Assembly (NCBI GenBank): GCA_035547835.1
Contig: DASZTW010000019.1
Span: forward strand, 62,001 to 126,000
Direction: 5' to 3'
Length of the DNA stretch: 64,000 nt
From: Acidimicrobiales bacterium
GTDB taxonomy: Bacteria; Actinomycetota; Acidimicrobiia; Acidimicrobiales; Iamiaceae
Shown here in pieces: positions 568 through 8,806 of the stretch (positions are counted from its first letter, which is position 1; each line of letters starts with the position of its first letter). The position numbers were made by a program, and so were the translations under genes. Under the pieces are notes generated by a model that was not told the origin of the DNA, did not search any database, and was given only the letters and a program-made list of their open reading frames with translations.

Positions 568-1029
568 ATGACCCCGCCACACAGCTCTGCCCCCACGTCC
601 ATGCCGTCGCCTGCCCGTCAACGGTCCCGTCGCAGTCTCGCTCTCGTGGTCGCGTTGCTGGCCGTGCTGGTGCTCGGAGCGGCCGCCTGTTCGGGCGGCT
701 CCAGCAAGGTGCTGAAGACCACGACCACCAAGAGCCCGACCACGGAGGCCACGTCCGACACCGGGAGCTTCTCCGACACCGGGAGCTTCTCGGACTCCGG
801 CGACTTCTCCGACTCGTCCAGCTACAGCGACTTGCTGTCGGACCTCTCGAGCGACGACAGCGGCAGTTCGGGCGGCAGCCTCCGCGACATCTTCTTGAAC
901 TCCTGCGAGGGCAGCGGCGGCAGCAAGTCGTTGTGCGAGTGCGTGGCCGACAAGCTCGACTTCAGCGACCCCACGAGCCTCGTGACCGAGGCGCAGTCCG
1001 CTGCCCGCGAGTGCGTGAGCGGCGACTGA
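568..1029 (+). CDS. Small secreted lipoprotein with Ser/Asp-rich repeats, function unknown
   Basis: This 153-residue protein has a basic N-terminus, a hydrophobic stretch and a lipobox LGAAAC near residue 41, so it is predicted to be lipidated and anchored outside the membrane. A Thr-rich spacer leads into a short tandem repeat (GSFSDT, GSFSDS, GDFSDS) and a Ser/Asp-rich linker. The C-terminal ~45 residues hold four cysteines (C, CxC, C), suggesting a small disulfide-bonded domain. I do not recognise the family. A possible -10 (TAACCT, 553-558) lies nine bases before the ATG. The overlapping antisense reading frames have no recognisable domains. It is followed by a strong hairpin. Confidence 0.72.
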   Translation: MTPPHSSAPTSMPSPARQRSRRSLALVVALLAVLVLGAAACSGGSSKVLKTTTTKSPTTEATSDTGSFSDTGSFSDSGDFSDSSSYSDLLSDLSSDDSGSSGGSLRDIFLNSCEGSGGSKSLCECVADKLDFSDPTSLVTEAQSAARECVSGD

Positions 1030-1144: not shown

Positions 1145-3106
1145 GTGATCATGACCTCGCTCTGGCCGCAGCTCGAGCCGCTCCTCATGCAGGTCGCCAA
1201 ACCTGCTCGCTACATCGGCTGCGAGGACGGCGCGGTGGTCCCTGACCACGATCCGCACAAGGTGGCCTGGCTGCTCGCCTACCCCGACACGTACGAGATC
1301 GGCCTGCCCAACCAGGGCCTGCAGGTGCTGGCCGAGATCCTCAACGAGCGCGCCGACGCGGTGGCCGAGCGAGCGTACGCACCTTGGCACGACCTCGAAG
1401 CCCTGCTCAGGGCCAACGGCCTGCCGCTCTTCTCGGTGGAGACCCACCGCGCGGCTGGGGACTTCGACCTGCTCGCGTTCAACCTGTCGGCCGAGCTCAC
1501 GTACACCAACCTGCTCAACATGGTCGACCTGGCGGGCGTCCCGGTGCGCACCGCTGACCGGTCGGTCGAGAACCCCCTCATCGGTGCGGGCGGCCACTGC
1601 ACTTACAACCCCGAGCCCATCGCCGACTTCCTCGACTTCGTGGTGCTCGGCGACGGCGAAGAAGCCGTCGGCGAGATCACCGAAGTGGTCGCCGACTGGA
1701 AGGCGAACGGGCGTGCCGGTGGGCGCGAGGCCGTGCATCGTGCCCTGGCGACGCTCGACGGGGTCTACGTCCCCGCGCTGTACGAAGCGGCGTTCGACGG
1801 GGACCTCTTCGGCGGCCTCACGCCGCTGGTGGCCGACGCGCCCGACGTGGTCGAAAAGCGCACCATCGCCGATCTCGCCGACTGGCCGTATCCGAAGCGC
1901 CAGCTCGTGCCGCTCACCGAGGTCGTGCACGACCGCCTCAACGTCGAGGTCTTCCGTGGCTGCACCCGCGGCTGCAGGTTCTGCCAAGCCGGGATGATCA
2001 CCCGCCCGGTGCGTGAACGCCCTGCCGAGCAGGTCCGCACGATGGTGGCCGCTGGTCTGCAGCGCACCGGATACGACGAAGTCGCGCTCACCTCGCTGTC
2101 GACCGCCGACTTCTCGGGCATCCAAGGCGTGCTCGACGAAGTGATGGACGATCCCGTCAACTGCGGCAAGGTCAGCGTGTCGTTGCCGAGCTTGCGGGTC
2201 GACGCGTTCGGGGTCGGCATCGCGGGCGCGATCCAAGGCGCCCGTCGCACCGGGCTGACCTTCGCGCCCGAGGCCGGTTCTTGGCGGCTGCGACAGGTGA
2301 TCAACAAGCTGATCCGCGAGGAAGACCTCTACGGGGCGGTCCGCTCGGCGTACAGCCAGGGCTGGCGCCGCATGAAGCTGTACTTCCTCACCGGCCTGCC
2401 GACCGAGACCGACCAGGACACGCTCGGCATCGCGGAGCTGGCCCGCAACGTGCTGGCGATCGGCAGGGAGTACCACCAGCGCCCGTCGGTCACCATCTCG
2501 GTCGGCGGGTTCGTGCCCAAGCCGTTCACGCCGTTCCAGTGGTTCGGCGCCAACACCGAGGACGAGCTGCGCCGCAAGATCGGCCTGCTGCGCGACGAGC
2601 TTCGCCGCGACCGCGGCATCGACCTCAAGTGGCACGATCCCCGCGCGACGGTCGCCGAGGCCATCATCAGCCGGGGTGACCGTCGCCTGGGGCCGGTCAT
2701 CGAACACGTGTGGCGACACGGCGGCACGTTCCAGGAGTGGTCGGAGTTCTTCGACCTCGACCTGTGGACGTCGGCGCTCGAGGCCCATGGCCTGACGGTC
2801 GAGCAGTTCGCGTACCGCCACCGCACCGAGGACGAGCCGCTCCCGTGGGATCACCTCTCGGCCGGCCTGCACCGCGACTTCCTGTGGCAGGACTGGCGCG
2901 ACGCACTCGCCGAGGTCGGCCTGCCCGACTGCCGGTGGACCCCGTGCTACGACTGCGGTGCATGCACCGGCTACGGCATCGAGCACGTGGTCGCCTCGGC
3001 AACCCCGCCGGCCGGCGGGAGTCAGGGCACCGGTGTCGAGCTCGCGTCCGGCGGCGAGGTCCCGATCACGCTGCTCCCCCGCAAGCCCGAGATGGCGGCC
3101 CGATGA
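1145..3106 (+). CDS. Radical SAM protein of the TIGR03960 type (B12-binding-like N-domain)
   Basis: This 653-residue protein has an N-terminal domain resembling the B12-binding-like Rossmann region of methylthiotransferase-type radical SAM enzymes. A radical SAM core follows, with the cluster motif CTRGCRFC (Cys 273, 277 and 280) that should bind a SAM-ligating [4Fe-4S] cluster. A C-terminal CYDCGAC motif could hold further metal. The family is conserved across actinobacteria and firmicutes beside a TIGR03936-type partner, as here, and its substrate is not established. The stop overlaps the partner's start (ATGA), so the two are translationally coupled. The start is GTG 1145 or ATG 1151. A possible -10 (TAACAT, 1136-1141) just upstream suggests a leaderless or very short-leader mRNA. 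Confidence 0.88.
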   Translation: MIMTSLWPQLEPLLMQVAKPARYIGCEDGAVVPDHDPHKVAWLLAYPDTYEIGLPNQGLQVLAEILNERADAVAERAYAPWHDLEALLRANGLPLFSVETHRAAGDFDLLAFNLSAELTYTNLLNMVDLAGVPVRTADRSVENPLIGAGGHCTYNPEPIADFLDFVVLGDGEEAVGEITEVVADWKANGRAGGREAVHRALATLDGVYVPALYEAAFDGDLFGGLTPLVADAPDVVEKRTIADLADWPYPKRQLVPLTEVVHDRLNVEVFRGCTRGCRFCQAGMITRPVRERPAEQVRTMVAAGLQRTGYDEVALTSLSTADFSGIQGVLDEVMDDPVNCGKVSVSLPSLRVDAFGVGIAGAIQGARRTGLTFAPEAGSWRLRQVINKLIREEDLYGAVRSAYSQGWRRMKLYFLTGLPTETDQDTLGIAELARNVLAIGREYHQRPSVTISVGGFVPKPFTPFQWFGANTEDELRRKIGLLRDELRRDRGIDLKWHDPRATVAEAIISRGDRRLGPVIEHVWRHGGTFQEWSEFFDLDLWTSALEAHGLTVEQFAYRHRTEDEPLPWDHLSAGLHRDFLWQDWRDALAEVGLPDCRWTPCYDCGACTGYGIEHVVASATPPAGGSQGTGVELASGGEVPITLLPRKPEMAAR

Positions 3107-3861
3107 CCCGGGTGCGCGTGCGGTTCACCAAGCACGGCAAAGTGCGCTTCACGAGCCACCGCGACACCGCCAGGATCTGGGAGCGGGCGTTGCGGAAGGC
3201 CTCGATCGAGGTCGCCTACTCCGAAGGTTTCTCGCCTCGCCCGAAGCTCCACTTCGGCTTGGCGCTGCCGACCGGCTACGAGTCGGATGCCGAGTACCTC
3301 GACGTAGACCTCGCCGGCGCCGCCGGCGTGGACGAGATCACCACCTTCCCCGACCGCCTCACCACGGCCCTCCCCATCGGGATGGCCGCCACGGCGGCCG
3401 AGACCCTCGAGCCTGGCGCTCCGTCGCTCCAGCAAGCCGTCACTGTCTGCGGCTGGCGAGTGGCGGTCCCCGGGCTCGGTCGCGACGACCTCGTGGCAAC
3501 GGTCGAGCGAGCGCTCGCCGCGACGGAGCTGTTCGTGACCCGCACCCGCAAGGGTGTCGAGACCACCGACGACGTGCGGCCGTGCATCGCTGCGCTCGAC
3601 GTCGGCAGTACCACCGACCACGGGACCGAGCTCATCGCCGAGCTCGGCACCCAGCCCCGTGCGCTTCGCCCGGCCGAGCTCCTCGCTGCGCTCGACCCGG
3701 CACCCACGGAGGGGCTGGTCACCCGCACACACCAATGGATCGAGCACGACGGGGAGCGCCGGGAACCACTCGTGGCCACCCGGCCCGCCGAGGTGGGTGC
3801 AGTCGCACCCTCGGCACCGGCCCGCCCCGAAGCTCCGCACGCGACGGCGCGTGCGTCATGA
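3103..3861 (+). CDS. Radical-SAM-linked protein, TIGR03936 / DUF2344 family
   Basis: This 252-residue cytosolic protein opens with the family signature: RVRFTKHGKVRFTSHRDTARIWERA, seen here as FTKHGKVRFTSH followed by an Arg-rich helix and then EGFSPRPKLHFGLALPTG. Members are encoded beside, or fused to, TIGR03960 radical SAM proteins and are presumed to form a complex with them. The biochemical role is unknown. The gene starts inside the stop codon of the radical SAM gene and is followed 15 bases later by RNase E/G, a conserved arrangement that hints at RNA or ribosome-related work. The start at 3103 is fixed by the ATGA overlap and by the family N-terminus. Confidence 0.85.
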   Translation: MTRVRVRFTKHGKVRFTSHRDTARIWERALRKASIEVAYSEGFSPRPKLHFGLALPTGYESDAEYLDVDLAGAAGVDEITTFPDRLTTALPIGMAATAAETLEPGAPSLQQAVTVCGWRVAVPGLGRDDLVATVERALAATELFVTRTRKGVETTDDVRPCIAALDVGSTTDHGTELIAELGTQPRALRPAELLAALDPAPTEGLVTRTHQWIEHDGERREPLVATRPAEVGAVAPSAPARPEAPHATARAS

Positions 3862-3876
3862 GAAGGGAACACACCC

Positions 3877-5670
3877 ATGGCCGACCACGGTCAGCCCGAC
3901 GAAACGTCCGGTTCCGACACCGGCAGCGGGGCCGTTCCGGCCCCGACCGCCGCACCCCGTAAGCCACAGATCGGCGACACGAGACCAGCCCCGCCCCCCG
4001 CCCCGAAGGCATCCGGTGGCGACGACAGCGCAGGATCCCGGTCCGATGGCCTGTCGGCGAGCGCCAAACGACGGCGTCGCCGCAACCGCAGCCGCAGCGG
4101 CAGCGGCAGCGGCGCAGCCGGAGCCAAGTCGGCAGGGGGTACGGCGGGCAACGGTGCTGCTGGCGCGCCGCGTCCGACCCAGAAGTCGGCGCCGACCGCG
4201 GCCGGCAAGGAGACGACAGCCACGGGCAAGGAAAGCGGCGGCCAACCGGCCTCCGCCAGGAGCGGCAACCGCTCCGCCCGCCGCCGAGGCAAGGCGACCC
4301 CGAAACCCAAGCCGGTCGAGGCCGTCACCAGCGACGAGCCGGTCGAGCTCTCCGACGACGCGCTCGAGCAGCGGCGCGGGAAGGCCCGCAACGGCCAGCC
4401 GGTGGGTCGGTACTCGATGGTCGTGCACCAGCACGCGGAGGCCACCCAGATCGCGGTGCTCGAGGGACGGTCGCTGCTCGAGTTCTACGTGTCCCGCCCC
4501 ACCGACGACGTCAACTTGATCCACGGCAACATCTACCTCGGCCGGGTCCAGAATGTGCTGCCCGGCATGGAAGCGGCCTTCGTCGACATCGGGACCCCGA
4601 AGAACGCGGTGCTGTACCGAGGCGACGTCCACTACGACCCCGACGACGTCGAGAGCAAGGGCGACGCGCCCCGGATCGAAGACGTGCTGAAGGCCAAGCA
4701 GTCGATCCTGTGCCAGGTCACCAAGAACCCGATCGGCGTGAAGGGTGCCCGTCTCACCCAGGAGATCTCCCTGCCGGGCCGGTTCGTGGTGCTCGTCCCG
4801 AACTCCACGACGTTCGGGATCTCCAAGCGACTGTCGGACAATGAACGCAAGCGACTCCGGTCGATCCTCGACCGGGTGAAACCCAAGCAGCACGGGGTGA
4901 TCATCCGCACCGCGGCGGAGGGGATCACAGGTGAAGAGATCGAGCGGGATGTCCGCCGGCTGCTGTCGCAGTGGGAGCAGATCGAGGCGCTCGCGAACGG
5001 GTCCAGAGCACCGACGCTGCTGTACCGCGAGCCCGACATGGCGGTCCGCGTGATCCGCGAGGAGTTCAACAAGGACTATCGCAAGGTCATCATCGACGAC
5101 CGCGCGCTGTACGAAGAAGTGCGCGAGTACGTGGCCAGCGTGTCACCCGCCCTGGCGGACCGGGTGGAGTACTACGACCCCGAGCGTGAGCCGCTGCCGG
5201 TGTTCGAGCGCTACCACGTGTACGAACAGCTCCAGAAGGCGCTCGACCGCAAGGTCTGGCTGCCGTCGGGCGGGTCGCTCATCATCGACCACACCGAGGC
5301 GCTGACGGTCATCGACGTGAACACCGGCAAGAACGTCGGCAAGTCCAACCTCGAGGACACGGTCTTCAAGAACAACCTCGAAGCGGCGCAGGAGATCGCC
5401 AAGCAGCTCCGTCTGCGCGACATCGGTGGCATCATCGTGATCGACTTCATCGACATGGAGATCCGCAAGAACCGCGACGAGGTCGTTCGGGTGTTCCGAG
5501 AGGCGCTGGCCCGCGACAAGACCCGCACCCAGGTGTTCGAGATCTCCGACCTGGGGTTGGTCGAGATGACCCGAAAGCGCATCGGGGAGGGTCTGTTGGT
5601 GTCCTTCGCCGACGAATGCCCCCACTGCGCCGGCCGGGGCATGATCCTCGACGCCTCGCTGTTGGGCTGA
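3877..5670 (+). CDS. rng: Ribonuclease E/G
   Basis: This 597-residue endoribonuclease has a ~170-residue low-complexity Arg/Lys/Ala/Ser-rich N-terminal extension, then the catalytic core. An S1-like RNA-binding segment contains NIYLGRVQNVLPGMEAAF. The catalytic aspartates sit in VIDVNTGKN (~residue 480) and DFIDME (~525). The Zn-link CPHC (~581-584) joins protomers in RNase E. It processes rRNA and mRNA from 5'-monophosphate ends. The extension is the usual location of disordered RNA- and protein-binding regions in actinobacterial enzymes. ATG 3877 follows the upstream gene by 15 bases with AGAAGGGAA as ribosome-binding site. Core assignment is firm; E versus G naming is conventional. Confidence 0.93.
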   Translation: MADHGQPDETSGSDTGSGAVPAPTAAPRKPQIGDTRPAPPPAPKASGGDDSAGSRSDGLSASAKRRRRRNRSRSGSGSGAAGAKSAGGTAGNGAAGAPRPTQKSAPTAAGKETTATGKESGGQPASARSGNRSARRRGKATPKPKPVEAVTSDEPVELSDDALEQRRGKARNGQPVGRYSMVVHQHAEATQIAVLEGRSLLEFYVSRPTDDVNLIHGNIYLGRVQNVLPGMEAAFVDIGTPKNAVLYRGDVHYDPDDVESKGDAPRIEDVLKAKQSILCQVTKNPIGVKGARLTQEISLPGRFVVLVPNSTTFGISKRLSDNERKRLRSILDRVKPKQHGVIIRTAAEGITGEEIERDVRRLLSQWEQIEALANGSRAPTLLYREPDMAVRVIREEFNKDYRKVIIDDRALYEEVREYVASVSPALADRVEYYDPEREPLPVFERYHVYEQLQKALDRKVWLPSGGSLIIDHTEALTVIDVNTGKNVGKSNLEDTVFKNNLEAAQEIAKQLRLRDIGGIIVIDFIDMEIRKNRDEVVRVFREALARDKTRTQVFEISDLGLVEMTRKRIGEGLLVSFADECPHCAGRGMILDASLLG

Positions 5671-6343: not shown

Positions 6344-6357
6344 CCCAGCCGTCAGGC
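6338..6357. terminator. Bidirectional hairpin between rpmA and dgt
   Basis: GCCTGAC (6338-6344) and GTCAGGC (6351-6357) form a 7-bp stem with a six-base loop that overlaps the stop codons of both convergent genes. Only eight bases separate the two genes, so this is the only available terminator space. Confidence 0.45.
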
Positions 6358-7461
6358 AGTTCGGGGCAAGGCGCTGGGCGCCCACCCCAGATGTTCGAGC
6401 GCGGCTCGCTGCGCGAAGCGATCCGTCATCCCGCTCACGTGCTGCACTGCCGCGGCTACTGCCGCGTCGGAGCGCGGCACCGGCGGCGCACCTGAGCTGG
6501 GCTCACCTCCTTCGGCTTGGCGCGCCGCGGGGTTGGCGGCGTACCAGTCGGTGAGATCACTGATCAGGCGGGCCGCCCGGTCGGCCTGCTCCACCGACTC
6601 GGGCCGGAGGTAGATCCGCTCGTAGTTGAACGCCCGGAATGCCGCCAGCGCCTCGGCTTCGGTGGCCCGCATGGCCACCACTCCTGTCTCGCCGATGGTC
6701 TCGACCATGGCGGTGATGAAGCGGTGGAGCTGCCCGCGGCGGTCGCGACCGACCACGCCCGCCACGTCGTCGGGCAGGTCCCGAGCGTGGACGATGCCCG
6801 CGGTGGCCGCGTCCTCGAAGTCGTGGCAGACATACGCGATGCGATCGGCCCACGCCACGATCTCGCCTTCGGGGGTGATCGGGGCGGGTCGGTTCCACGA
6901 GTGGTTGCGGACCGCGTCCAGCGTCTCCGCGCACAAGTTCATGGGCGCCAGCACGACATCGGCCCCGTAGACCGCGTGGTGGTAGCCGCCATCGACGAAC
7001 GGCGACAGCGCGCCTTCCGACGCGTGCCCCGCGGGACCGTGGCCGCAATCGTGGCCGGTGGCAGCGGCCGCCGTCAGCGCCACGTTGCAGCCGACCGGCC
7101 GGGCGATGCTCACCGCGACCTGCGCCACCTCGATGGCGTGGGTGAGGCGGGTGCGGAGGTGGTCGTCGTCGGGAGCGATGAAGACCTGACACTTGCCGGC
7201 GAGGCGGCGGAAGGCCCGGCTGTGCTGGATGCGATCGAGGTCGCGCTCGAAACAGGTCCGGAACGGGTCCGGCTCCTCGGCCACCGCCCGGTTGCCGGCG
7301 CCCAACGACTCCGTGGCACCTGGCGCGAGGCGGCCCTGATCGCCGGCCGGCTCCCGCTGGGCGCGGCTCCGCACCTCGCCGCCCACGAACGCGGCACGGC
7401 TCGGCCCGTGGGCCCAGTGGATCGGGCCGTCGGCCAAGTGGCGCGGCGCGTCGAACTCCAT
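6352..7461 (-). CDS. dgt: Deoxyguanosinetriphosphate triphosphohydrolase-like HD protein
   Basis: This 369-residue cytosolic protein is expected to hydrolyse dNTPs to nucleosides and triphosphate. HD-domain metal ligands are visible: H108 in RLTHAIEV, H137-D138 in TGHDCGH, and a later Asp in VAWADRIAYVCHD. The segment DRIQHSRAFRRLAGKCQVF is the conserved substrate-side motif. The length fits the dGTPase-like subfamily. It lies on the opposite strand between rpmA and obgE. TAAGGT at 7468-7473 followed by exactly six bases before ATG supports this start and a leaderless transcript. Substrate specificity within the family varies and is not readable from sequence. Confidence 0.88.
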   Translation of the reverse strand: MEFDAPRHLADGPIHWAHGPSRAAFVGGEVRSRAQREPAGDQGRLAPGATESLGAGNRAVAEEPDPFRTCFERDLDRIQHSRAFRRLAGKCQVFIAPDDDHLRTRLTHAIEVAQVAVSIARPVGCNVALTAAAATGHDCGHGPAGHASEGALSPFVDGGYHHAVYGADVVLAPMNLCAETLDAVRNHSWNRPAPITPEGEIVAWADRIAYVCHDFEDAATAGIVHARDLPDDVAGVVGRDRRGQLHRFITAMVETIGETGVVAMRATEAEALAAFRAFNYERIYLRPESVEQADRAARLISDLTDWYAANPAARQAEGGEPSSGAPPVPRSDAAVAAAVQHVSGMTDRFAQRAALEHLGWAPSALPRTA

Positions 7462-7534: not shown

Positions 7535-8806
7535 GTGTCCGGGTTCGTCGACGTCGCCCAACTGAACGTGCGGGGAGGCGACGGCGGCGCGGGCTGTGTG
7601 TCGTTCCGGCGGGAGGCGCACGTGGCCCGAGGCGGGCCGGACGGCGGCGACGGTGGCAGGGGCGGCGACGTCTGGCTGGTGGCCGATCGCAACGTGGCGT
7701 CCCTGTTGGCGTTTCGCGACCACCCGCACCGCCGGGCCACCAACGGGACGCACGGCCAGGGTAAGAAGCGTCACGGCGGCGGCGGCGACGATGTCGACGT
7801 CCACGTCCCCGAAGGCACGGTCGTGACCGATCGCGAGGGATCGGTGCTCGCGGATCTCGTCCAACACGGCGACCGGTGGCTGGCTGCCCGCGGCGGGGTG
7901 GGCGGGCAGGGCAACGCCCGGTTCCTCGCCAACAACCGGCGCGCACCGGCCTTTGCCGAGCAGGGTGAGCTCGGCGAGGAACGCTGGTTGGGGTTGGAGC
8001 TGAAGTTGATGGCCGACGTGGCGCTCGTCGGCTTCCCGAACGTCGGCAAGTCGACGTTGATCTCCCGCATCTCGGCCGCCAAGCCCAAGATCGCCGACTA
8101 CCCGTTCACCACGCTCGAGCCCAACTTGGGCGTCGTGTCGATGGACGACGGCATCGAGTACGTCGTGGCCGACGTGCCCGGGCTCATCGAGGGCGCCAGC
8201 GAAGGGCGCGGGCTGGGCCACCAGTTCCTGCGCCACGTCGAACGTGCCCGGGTGCTGTGCCTCCTGCTCGACTTGTCGCCGTTCGCCACGCATCCACCCA
8301 CCGATCAGCACGAGATCCTGTTGCGTGAGCTCGGCGCGCACCGGCGCGAGCTGCTCGACCGACCGCGCCTGGTCGTGGGCTCGAGGTCCGACCTGCGGGA
8401 AGACACCGACGCGCCCTTGCCTGCGGGAGTCGAGCTCGAGGTCGCTGCCGTGACCGGCCAAGGCGTCGACCGGCTGCGTGGGCGGCTCGCAGACCTGGTC
8501 CAGACCGCGCGACAGGCCGAGCCGGTGTCCGACGCGATCGTGGTGCACCGTCCTGAGCCCGATGGCATCCGGGTCGAGCGCATCGGTGAGCGGGCGTGGC
8601 AGGTGGTCGGTCGCCCGGCAGAGCGCGCCGTGGCGCTCAACGACCTGACCCGGCCCGACACGCTCGCGTTCGTCCAGCAACGGCTTCGTCGGCTGGGCGT
8701 CGATCGCGCCCTGGCCCGGGCCGGAGTGCGCGGCGGCGACATCGTCACGATCGGCGCTTTCGAGTTCGACTTCGAGCCCGACGAGCAGGTACACGAGTGG
8801 ACGTGA
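7535..8806 (+). CDS. obgE: Obg family GTPase (CgtA/ObgE)
   Basis: This 423-residue ribosome-assembly GTPase acts on the 50S subunit and in stress signalling. It has the Gly-rich Obg fold at residues 1-158 (VRGGDGGAGCVSF, GGPDGGDGGRGGDV), G1 GFPNVGKST (166-174), G3 DVPGLIEGAS (213-222), and a C-terminal OCT domain ending FEFDFEPDE. Oddly, the G4 motif, normally NKxD, reads SRSD (283-286): the guanine-specifying Asp is kept but Asn and Lys are replaced. It follows rplU-rpmA as in most bacteria. GTG 7535 is chosen from the family N-terminus and the -10 spacing. Confidence 0.95.
   Translation: MSGFVDVAQLNVRGGDGGAGCVSFRREAHVARGGPDGGDGGRGGDVWLVADRNVASLLAFRDHPHRRATNGTHGQGKKRHGGGGDDVDVHVPEGTVVTDREGSVLADLVQHGDRWLAARGGVGGQGNARFLANNRRAPAFAEQGELGEERWLGLELKLMADVALVGFPNVGKSTLISRISAAKPKIADYPFTTLEPNLGVVSMDDGIEYVVADVPGLIEGASEGRGLGHQFLRHVERARVLCLLLDLSPFATHPPTDQHEILLRELGAHRRELLDRPRLVVGSRSDLREDTDAPLPAGVELEVAAVTGQGVDRLRGRLADLVQTARQAEPVSDAIVVHRPEPDGIRVERIGERAWQVVGRPAERAVALNDLTRPDTLAFVQQRLRRLGVDRALARAGVRGGDIVTIGAFEFDFEPDEQVHEWT

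Follow-up and report, generated by a model that had tools for sequence, protein, structure and literature searches.

Radical S-adenosylmethionine (SAM) enzymes include RlmN and Cfr, 23S rRNA methylases that act on RNA, MiaB and MtaB, which act on tRNA, RimO, which acts on ribosomal protein S12, and MgmA (TIGR04014), a cobalamin-dependent glutamine methylase that acts on methyl-coenzyme M reductase. TruA, PUS10 and PUS3 are pseudouridine synthases of Pfam clan CL0649, and TruA carries its catalytic aspartate in an RTDAG motif. Here we describe a locus that combines features of both groups, within a stretch of 64,000 nucleotides (the window; contig DASZTW010000019.1) from the 3.7 Mb genome of an Acidimicrobiales bacterium. 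In this locus a gene of the radical SAM family TIGR03960 is followed by a gene of the family TIGR03936, or DUF2344; the literature searched gives no description of the function of either family. We propose, with a probability of roughly 55%, that the two proteins form a two-subunit RNA-modifying enzyme, fused in some species, in which a TruA-type subunit lacking the catalytic aspartate would place RNA so that a radical SAM subunit of the cobalamin type can carry out a carbon-centred change, most likely methylation.

The model of the window DUF2344 protein made with AlphaFold2 from a 51-sequence alignment (predicted local distance difference test, pLDDT, 93.1) adopts the two-fold alpha-beta fold of pseudouridine synthases over residues 1-225. 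Comparison of this model with the PDB using Foldseek gave a best E of 4.7e-8, and all 24 matches at E <= 1e-3 were pseudouridine synthases (of the TruA, PUS1, PUS3, PUS10 and Cbf5 kind) or proteins of that fold, two of them chains of the trypanosome mitoribosome assembly set. Superposition with VIA gave Z 14.7 for PUS10 (200 aligned residues, 3.4 Å) and Z 13.2 for TruA (185 aligned residues, 3.4 Å). At the level of sequence profiles, hhalign in local mode matched DUF2344 to an alignment of 30 TruA proteins with a probability of 79.9 and a score of 42.9, against at most 0.5 and 20.1 for 11 control alignments (reversed, column-shuffled or unrelated). In addition, all 15 of the matches to TIGR03936 that fell below the cut-off in a sample of 149 Actinomycetota genomes were TruA genes, five identified by position and ten by NCBIfam. 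The kinship in fold is not new, because the membership of DUF2344 in the Pfam pseudouridine-synthase clan is in print (PMC7955657); what we add is that the catalytic residue has been lost and that the protein is paired with this particular radical SAM protein.

Although the register of the TruA catalytic loop can be followed in DUF2344, the aspartate itself is absent from all 51 sequences. Its position is occupied by proline in 36 sequences, including that of the window (Table 1), by alanine in seven, serine in six, and glutamine and glycine in one each. The glycine two residues further on is kept in 49 of the 51. Every sequence has W, Y or F at alignment position 118, an aromatic residue close to the place of the active-site tyrosine of TruA. 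DUF2344 further differs from TruA, PUS10 and PUS3 by a conserved insertion of its own (Table 1) and by occurring only alongside a radical SAM protein.

The strictness of this pairing emerged from the sample of 149 genomes, in which matches over the cut-off were counted for TIGR03960 and TIGR03936. Each model matched in 77 genomes, the 77 were identical, and neither protein ever occurred alone. The two genes lie on one contig and strand in 73 of these genomes, within 1 kb of each other in 67 and separated by 1.4-14 kb in the other six. They are on different contigs in three genomes, and in one further genome, G072, they lie about 21 kb apart on opposite strands of contig C6 (radical SAM gene at 84830-86653, minus strand; DUF2344 at 63439-64083, plus strand). 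In G072 the gene for RNase E/G still adjoins DUF2344; the radical SAM gene sits among FtsW/RodA-type genes. None of 56 stretches from genomes without an intact pair contains DUF2344. One of these genomes, G091, lacks DUF2344 and retains part of the radical SAM gene beside RNase E/G (stretch L212, 7024-8343; 59 bits, model positions 3-74); its pair appears to be decaying.

RNase E/G, by comparison, is linked to the pair by position and not by co-occurrence. Of the 64 genomes with both genes, 62 have DUF2344 directly upstream of RNase E/G, on the same strand and within 2.4 kb, and the remaining two have them on different contigs. Loss of this linkage in most genomes is what the earlier note had named as fatal to its reading; the linkage is kept in most loci. 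However, matches to the RNase E/G model TIGR00757, found in 124 of the 149 genomes, are as frequent with the pair (64/77) as without it (60/72; Fisher p = 1). The same holds for RlmN, our control radical SAM enzyme, whose distribution (42/77 with the pair, 48/72 without) is unrelated to it. Because neither gene occurs without the other among the 149 genomes and RNase E/G is distributed independently of them, we conclude that the radical SAM protein and DUF2344 are an obligate pair, gained or lost whole as one unit, of which RNase E/G is a neighbour and not a member.

This result bears on what the pair acts upon. The tight placement upstream of RNase E/G would suit an enzyme that modifies RNase E/G, as the earlier note had considered, or that works only together with it. 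Thirteen of the 77 pair-bearing genomes have no match to RNase E/G, though (in two of these the contig stops after DUF2344), and when 67 RNase E/G sequences from pair-bearing genomes were compared with 53 others only one leucine and one alanine were conserved at 97% or more in the former and below 90% in the latter. Since there is no co-occurrence with the pair, RNase E/G was rejected as the general substrate; such a general role is contradicted, and we regard modification of RNase E/G, or dependence on it, as highly improbable.

The 13 genomes without RNase E/G are informative in another respect. In stretches of 10-20 kb, seven of them have the order radical SAM-DUF2344-L21-L27, two reach a contig edge after DUF2344, and four, all from Actinomycetota family f26, have no L21-L27 genes nearby, one of the four likewise running into a contig edge. 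The pair could therefore be imagined to modify ribosomal protein L21 or L27, much as RimO modifies S12 and MgmA methyl-coenzyme M reductase, with the TruA fold gripping the ribosomal particle or protein. The adjacency to rplU-rpmA in those seven genomes is consistent with this, as is the fact that MgmA, the closest solved relative of the radical SAM subunit, modifies a protein (PMC11796369). Residue comparison gave the idea, already raised in the earlier note, no support: in L27 (55 sequences from pair-bearing genomes against 54 others) every position conserved at 97% or more was still conserved at 87% or more in the others, and in L21 (58 against 53) all eight such positions remained at 90% or more, leaving no residue that is conserved with the pair and freed without it. 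Moreover, the partner has the fold of RNA-modifying enzymes, and the L21-L27 order is unchanged in pairless genomes, in whose 56 stretches L21-L27-Obg mostly come next after RNase E/G. Modification of L21 or L27 is thus quite unlikely. Across L21, L27 and RNase E/G together, we found no convincing residue that discriminates pair-bearing from pairless genomes.

The pair accompanies rplU-rpmA-obg even in the absence of RNase E/G, and on this ground the proposed RNA-modifying enzyme probably acts on an RNA belonging to the translation machinery. The 50S gene neighbourhood points to 23S rRNA, and kinship with TruA points to tRNA. From the location of the genes, the earlier note had suggested rRNA, tRNA, a ribosomal protein or RNase E/G itself as the substrate; its RNA-modification reading is strengthened by the TruA-fold partner, and its interpretation as a whole is supported in part.

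The radical SAM protein of the window matches Pfam Radical_SAM_N2 and Radical_SAM and has the cysteine motif of the superfamily (Table 1). Its fold was taken from a model of a Mitsuokella protein in which it is fused to DUF2344 (57 sequences; pLDDT 86.6, predicted template modelling score 0.85). Over the radical SAM half this fusion protein shares 45% identity with that of the window, and its C-terminal half, covered by only four rows of the alignment, matches PUS1 and TruA. In the model, the radical SAM half most resembles MgmA, the cobalamin-dependent methylase (9ccb, E 9e-15; VIA Z 20.6 over 372 residues), followed in the VIA order by CysS (Z 18.5), MtaB, MiaB, TokK, TsrM, RimO and OxsB. 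The predicted Rossmann N-domain precedes the radical SAM barrel as in MgmA and is arranged as in MgmA, TsrM and OxsB, with Z 15.5-20.6 over 372-411 residues for MgmA, CysS, TokK, TsrM and OxsB. MgmA is also the best PDB match by sequence (E 2e-13). MgmA, however, works on a protein substrate without a TruA-like partner, and the window protein reaches 48.7 bits on the MgmA model, whose cut-off is 360. RlmN is structurally more distant (Z 10.4), and RlmN and Cfr, unlike the pair, are single subunits without a B12-type domain.

The resemblance of the N-domain to methylthiotransferases, which the earlier note had pointed out, is real at the level of overall fold, with VIA Z 16-17 to MiaB, MtaB and RimO, whereas the cobalamin methylases fit better and the three cysteines that hold the second cluster of methylthiotransferases are absent. 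No N-domain column has cysteine in more than half of the 57 sequences, no TRAM match appeared in a Pfam scan, no MiaB or RimO model was among the five matches of the window protein at E <= 0.001, and its relatives scored 18-35 bits on the MiaB and RimO models against cut-offs of 251-357. Because the N-domain has no conserved cysteines, we rejected the pair as a methylthiotransferase.

Some other reaction on RNA without cobalamin, or one like methylthiolation, must still be weighed. The N-domain would then be purely structural, and the C-terminal four-cysteine motif (Table 1), which is possibly a second metal site, would hold a second cluster. Alongside the similarity to MiaB, MtaB and RimO, two features fit this: the four cysteines are nearly invariant, and the nearly invariant DxYExG motif, from its position after the first strand, would correspond to the DxHxxG cobalamin motif of MetH-type domains with tyrosine for histidine. 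On the other hand, cobalamin-dependent radical SAM enzymes of known structure also do without a histidine ligand (PMC13331322), and the proteins that fit best remain MgmA and CysS. The pair can evidently persist without the four-cysteine motif, because in the two members of Actinomycetota family f11 whose ends were compared the radical SAM protein stops before it. A reaction of this non-cobalamin type is accordingly unlikely.

Several observations weigh against an enzyme that uses cobalamin to modify RNA. The hhalign probability linking DUF2344 to TruA is moderate, and a pseudouridine-synthase fold, here seen in a model, is no proof of RNA binding. DUF2344 is not basic, with a mean net charge of -0.6 (n = 51) and -5 in the window, compared with a mean of +5.3 for TruA. 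In the three family f26 genomes whose downstream side is visible, the pair stands outside the L21-L27 cluster. Cobalamin use is unproven, given the tyrosine in place of histidine; methylthiotransferases share a similar N-fold without cobalamin; and the closest solved relatives (MgmA, CysS, TsrM and TokK) act on proteins or small molecules. The window radical SAM protein scores 19.5 bits on Pfam B12-binding, below the cut-off of 32.1. Genome content points both ways: of the 77 pair-bearing genomes 34 were tested, and all 34 have a B12-binding Pfam match over the cut-off, whereas CobS was matched in only 19, in 14 of them over the cut-off.

That DUF2344 is not basic would also suit a pair that serves another process, such as growth of the cell envelope, with DUF2344 binding a ligand other than RNA. 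RodA/FtsW-type genes lie near the pair in family f26 and in G072, MurB lies downstream in another genome, and the end of a RodA-like gene precedes the pair in the window. Yet the nearest neighbours kept in most loci are RNase E/G and the 50S genes, and we know of no role of the TruA family outside RNA. An envelope function is, in our judgement, distinctly unlikely.

Beyond the 149 genomes, a contig scan for named loci gave at least 591 matches, of which only the best 80 were returned, and the sample therefore leans to Actinomycetota (65 loci by record title, with 13 from Bacillota and two from Armatimonadota). DUF2344 is present in 74 of these best 80. Where at least 6 kb of downstream sequence is available (62 loci), DUF2344 is found in 61 and both DUF2344 and RNase E/G in 55; with at least 9 kb (59 loci), RNase E/G is found in 54 and L21 or L27 in 43. 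The gene order of the window recurs among these best 80 in Tissierella, Desulfovirgula and Armatimonadota, among others. In four of them, two from Selenomonadaceae (one being the Mitsuokella protein modelled above) and both from Armatimonadota, the radical SAM protein and DUF2344 are fused. Each model exceeded its cut-off in two of 14 control genomes. No genomes other than Synechococcus elongatus and Thermotoga maritima stand in both match lists, which suggests that these two carry the pair. The cytidine derivative N-330 at position 1404 of 16S rRNA, known in Thermotoga maritima, was set aside as a product of the pair, because Haloferax volcanii also has it (PMC2584109) and yet is absent from the control-genome match lists of both models.

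In the window itself, open reading frames, sequence and profile searches bore out the gene arrangement given by the earlier note (Table 1), including the overlap of the pair by four bases (ATGA, 3103-3106, common to the end of the radical SAM gene and the start of DUF2344), the 15 bases before RNase E/G, and rplU-rpmA thereafter. The radical SAM protein scores 666.6 bits on TIGR03960 (rSAM_fuse_unch), whose curated NCBIfam cut-off is 462.3; its partner scores 163.8 on TIGR03936 (curated cut-off 71.9) and 142.0 on the Pfam DUF2344 model (cut-off 23.8); and RNase E/G scores 488.9 on TIGR00757 (cut-off 325.95). These family assignments are far beyond chance. Further downstream, a dGTPase-type HD gene (6352-7461, minus strand) separates rpmA from the gene for Obg, a 50S assembly factor. 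Upstream, the end of the RodA/FtsW-like gene was read by eye at 6-386, and a small serine-rich open reading frame with a lipoprotein-like start and weak family matches (568-1029, plus strand) lies between it and the radical SAM gene. Three loci from family f26 and G072 encode a protein weakly matching DUF697/EcsC; its gene is flanked by a RodA-type gene and the radical SAM gene, or else immediately precedes the latter.

Table 1. Genes and motifs of the locus, in window coordinates.
Feature	Position	Strand	Remarks
TIGR03960 B12-binding-type radical SAM gene	1145-3106	+	653 amino acids; GTG start, in-frame ATG at 1151 as alternative start
D48-x-Y50-E51-x-G53	1286-1303	+	D and Y in 57/57 sequences, G in 56/57
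Radical SAM CxxxCxxC (Cys 273, 277, 280)	1961-1984	+	57/57 sequences
C-terminal C-x4-C-x2-C-x2-C (Cys 596, 601, 604, 607)	2930-2965	+	57, 57, 57 and 55 of 57 sequences
TIGR03936/DUF2344 partner gene	3103-3861	+	252 amino acids; ATG at 3103
S40-x-G42-F43-x-P45 insertion	3220-3237	+	Specific to DUF2344 family; G, F and P in 51/51, S in 48/51; gap in TruA (hhalign)
Pro56 at position of TruA catalytic Asp (RTDAG)	3268-3270	+	Register from hhalign and four TIGR03936 matches to TruA
RNase E/G gene	3877-5670	+	ATG at 3877, 15-base gap after DUF2344; TIGR00757 match
rplU, ribosomal protein L21	5759-6064	+	Open reading frame and profile neighbours; linked gene, outside 1145-5670
rpmA, ribosomal protein L27	6071-6343	+	Open reading frame and profile neighbours; linked gene, outside 1145-5670
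obg GTPase	7535-8806	+	Open reading frame and profile neighbours; linked gene

In the mechanism we envisage, the TruA-like subunit would bind a structured RNA and offer a base to the radical SAM subunit, where SAM and cobalamin would drive methylation by analogy with MgmA, TsrM, TokK and CysS. More tentatively, and at somewhat less than even odds, the DUF2344 protein may be a non-catalytic pseudouridine synthase kept as a guide that brings a ribosomal or transfer RNA site within reach of a cobalamin-dependent radical SAM subunit; the product would be a carbon-linked modification for which no enzyme has so far been assigned in Actinomycetota, Bacillota and Armatimonadota, and probably, from the control genomes, in Cyanobacteria and Thermotogota. 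Roughly half of the sampled Actinomycetota genomes carry the pair, which also occurs in other phyla, and the partner's TruA fold, its missing catalytic aspartate and the strict co-occurrence of the two genes make an RNA substrate directly testable. If the proposal is true, the pair would be a case of a non-catalytic pseudouridine synthase guiding another enzyme, and of a cobalamin-type radical SAM enzyme working on RNA.

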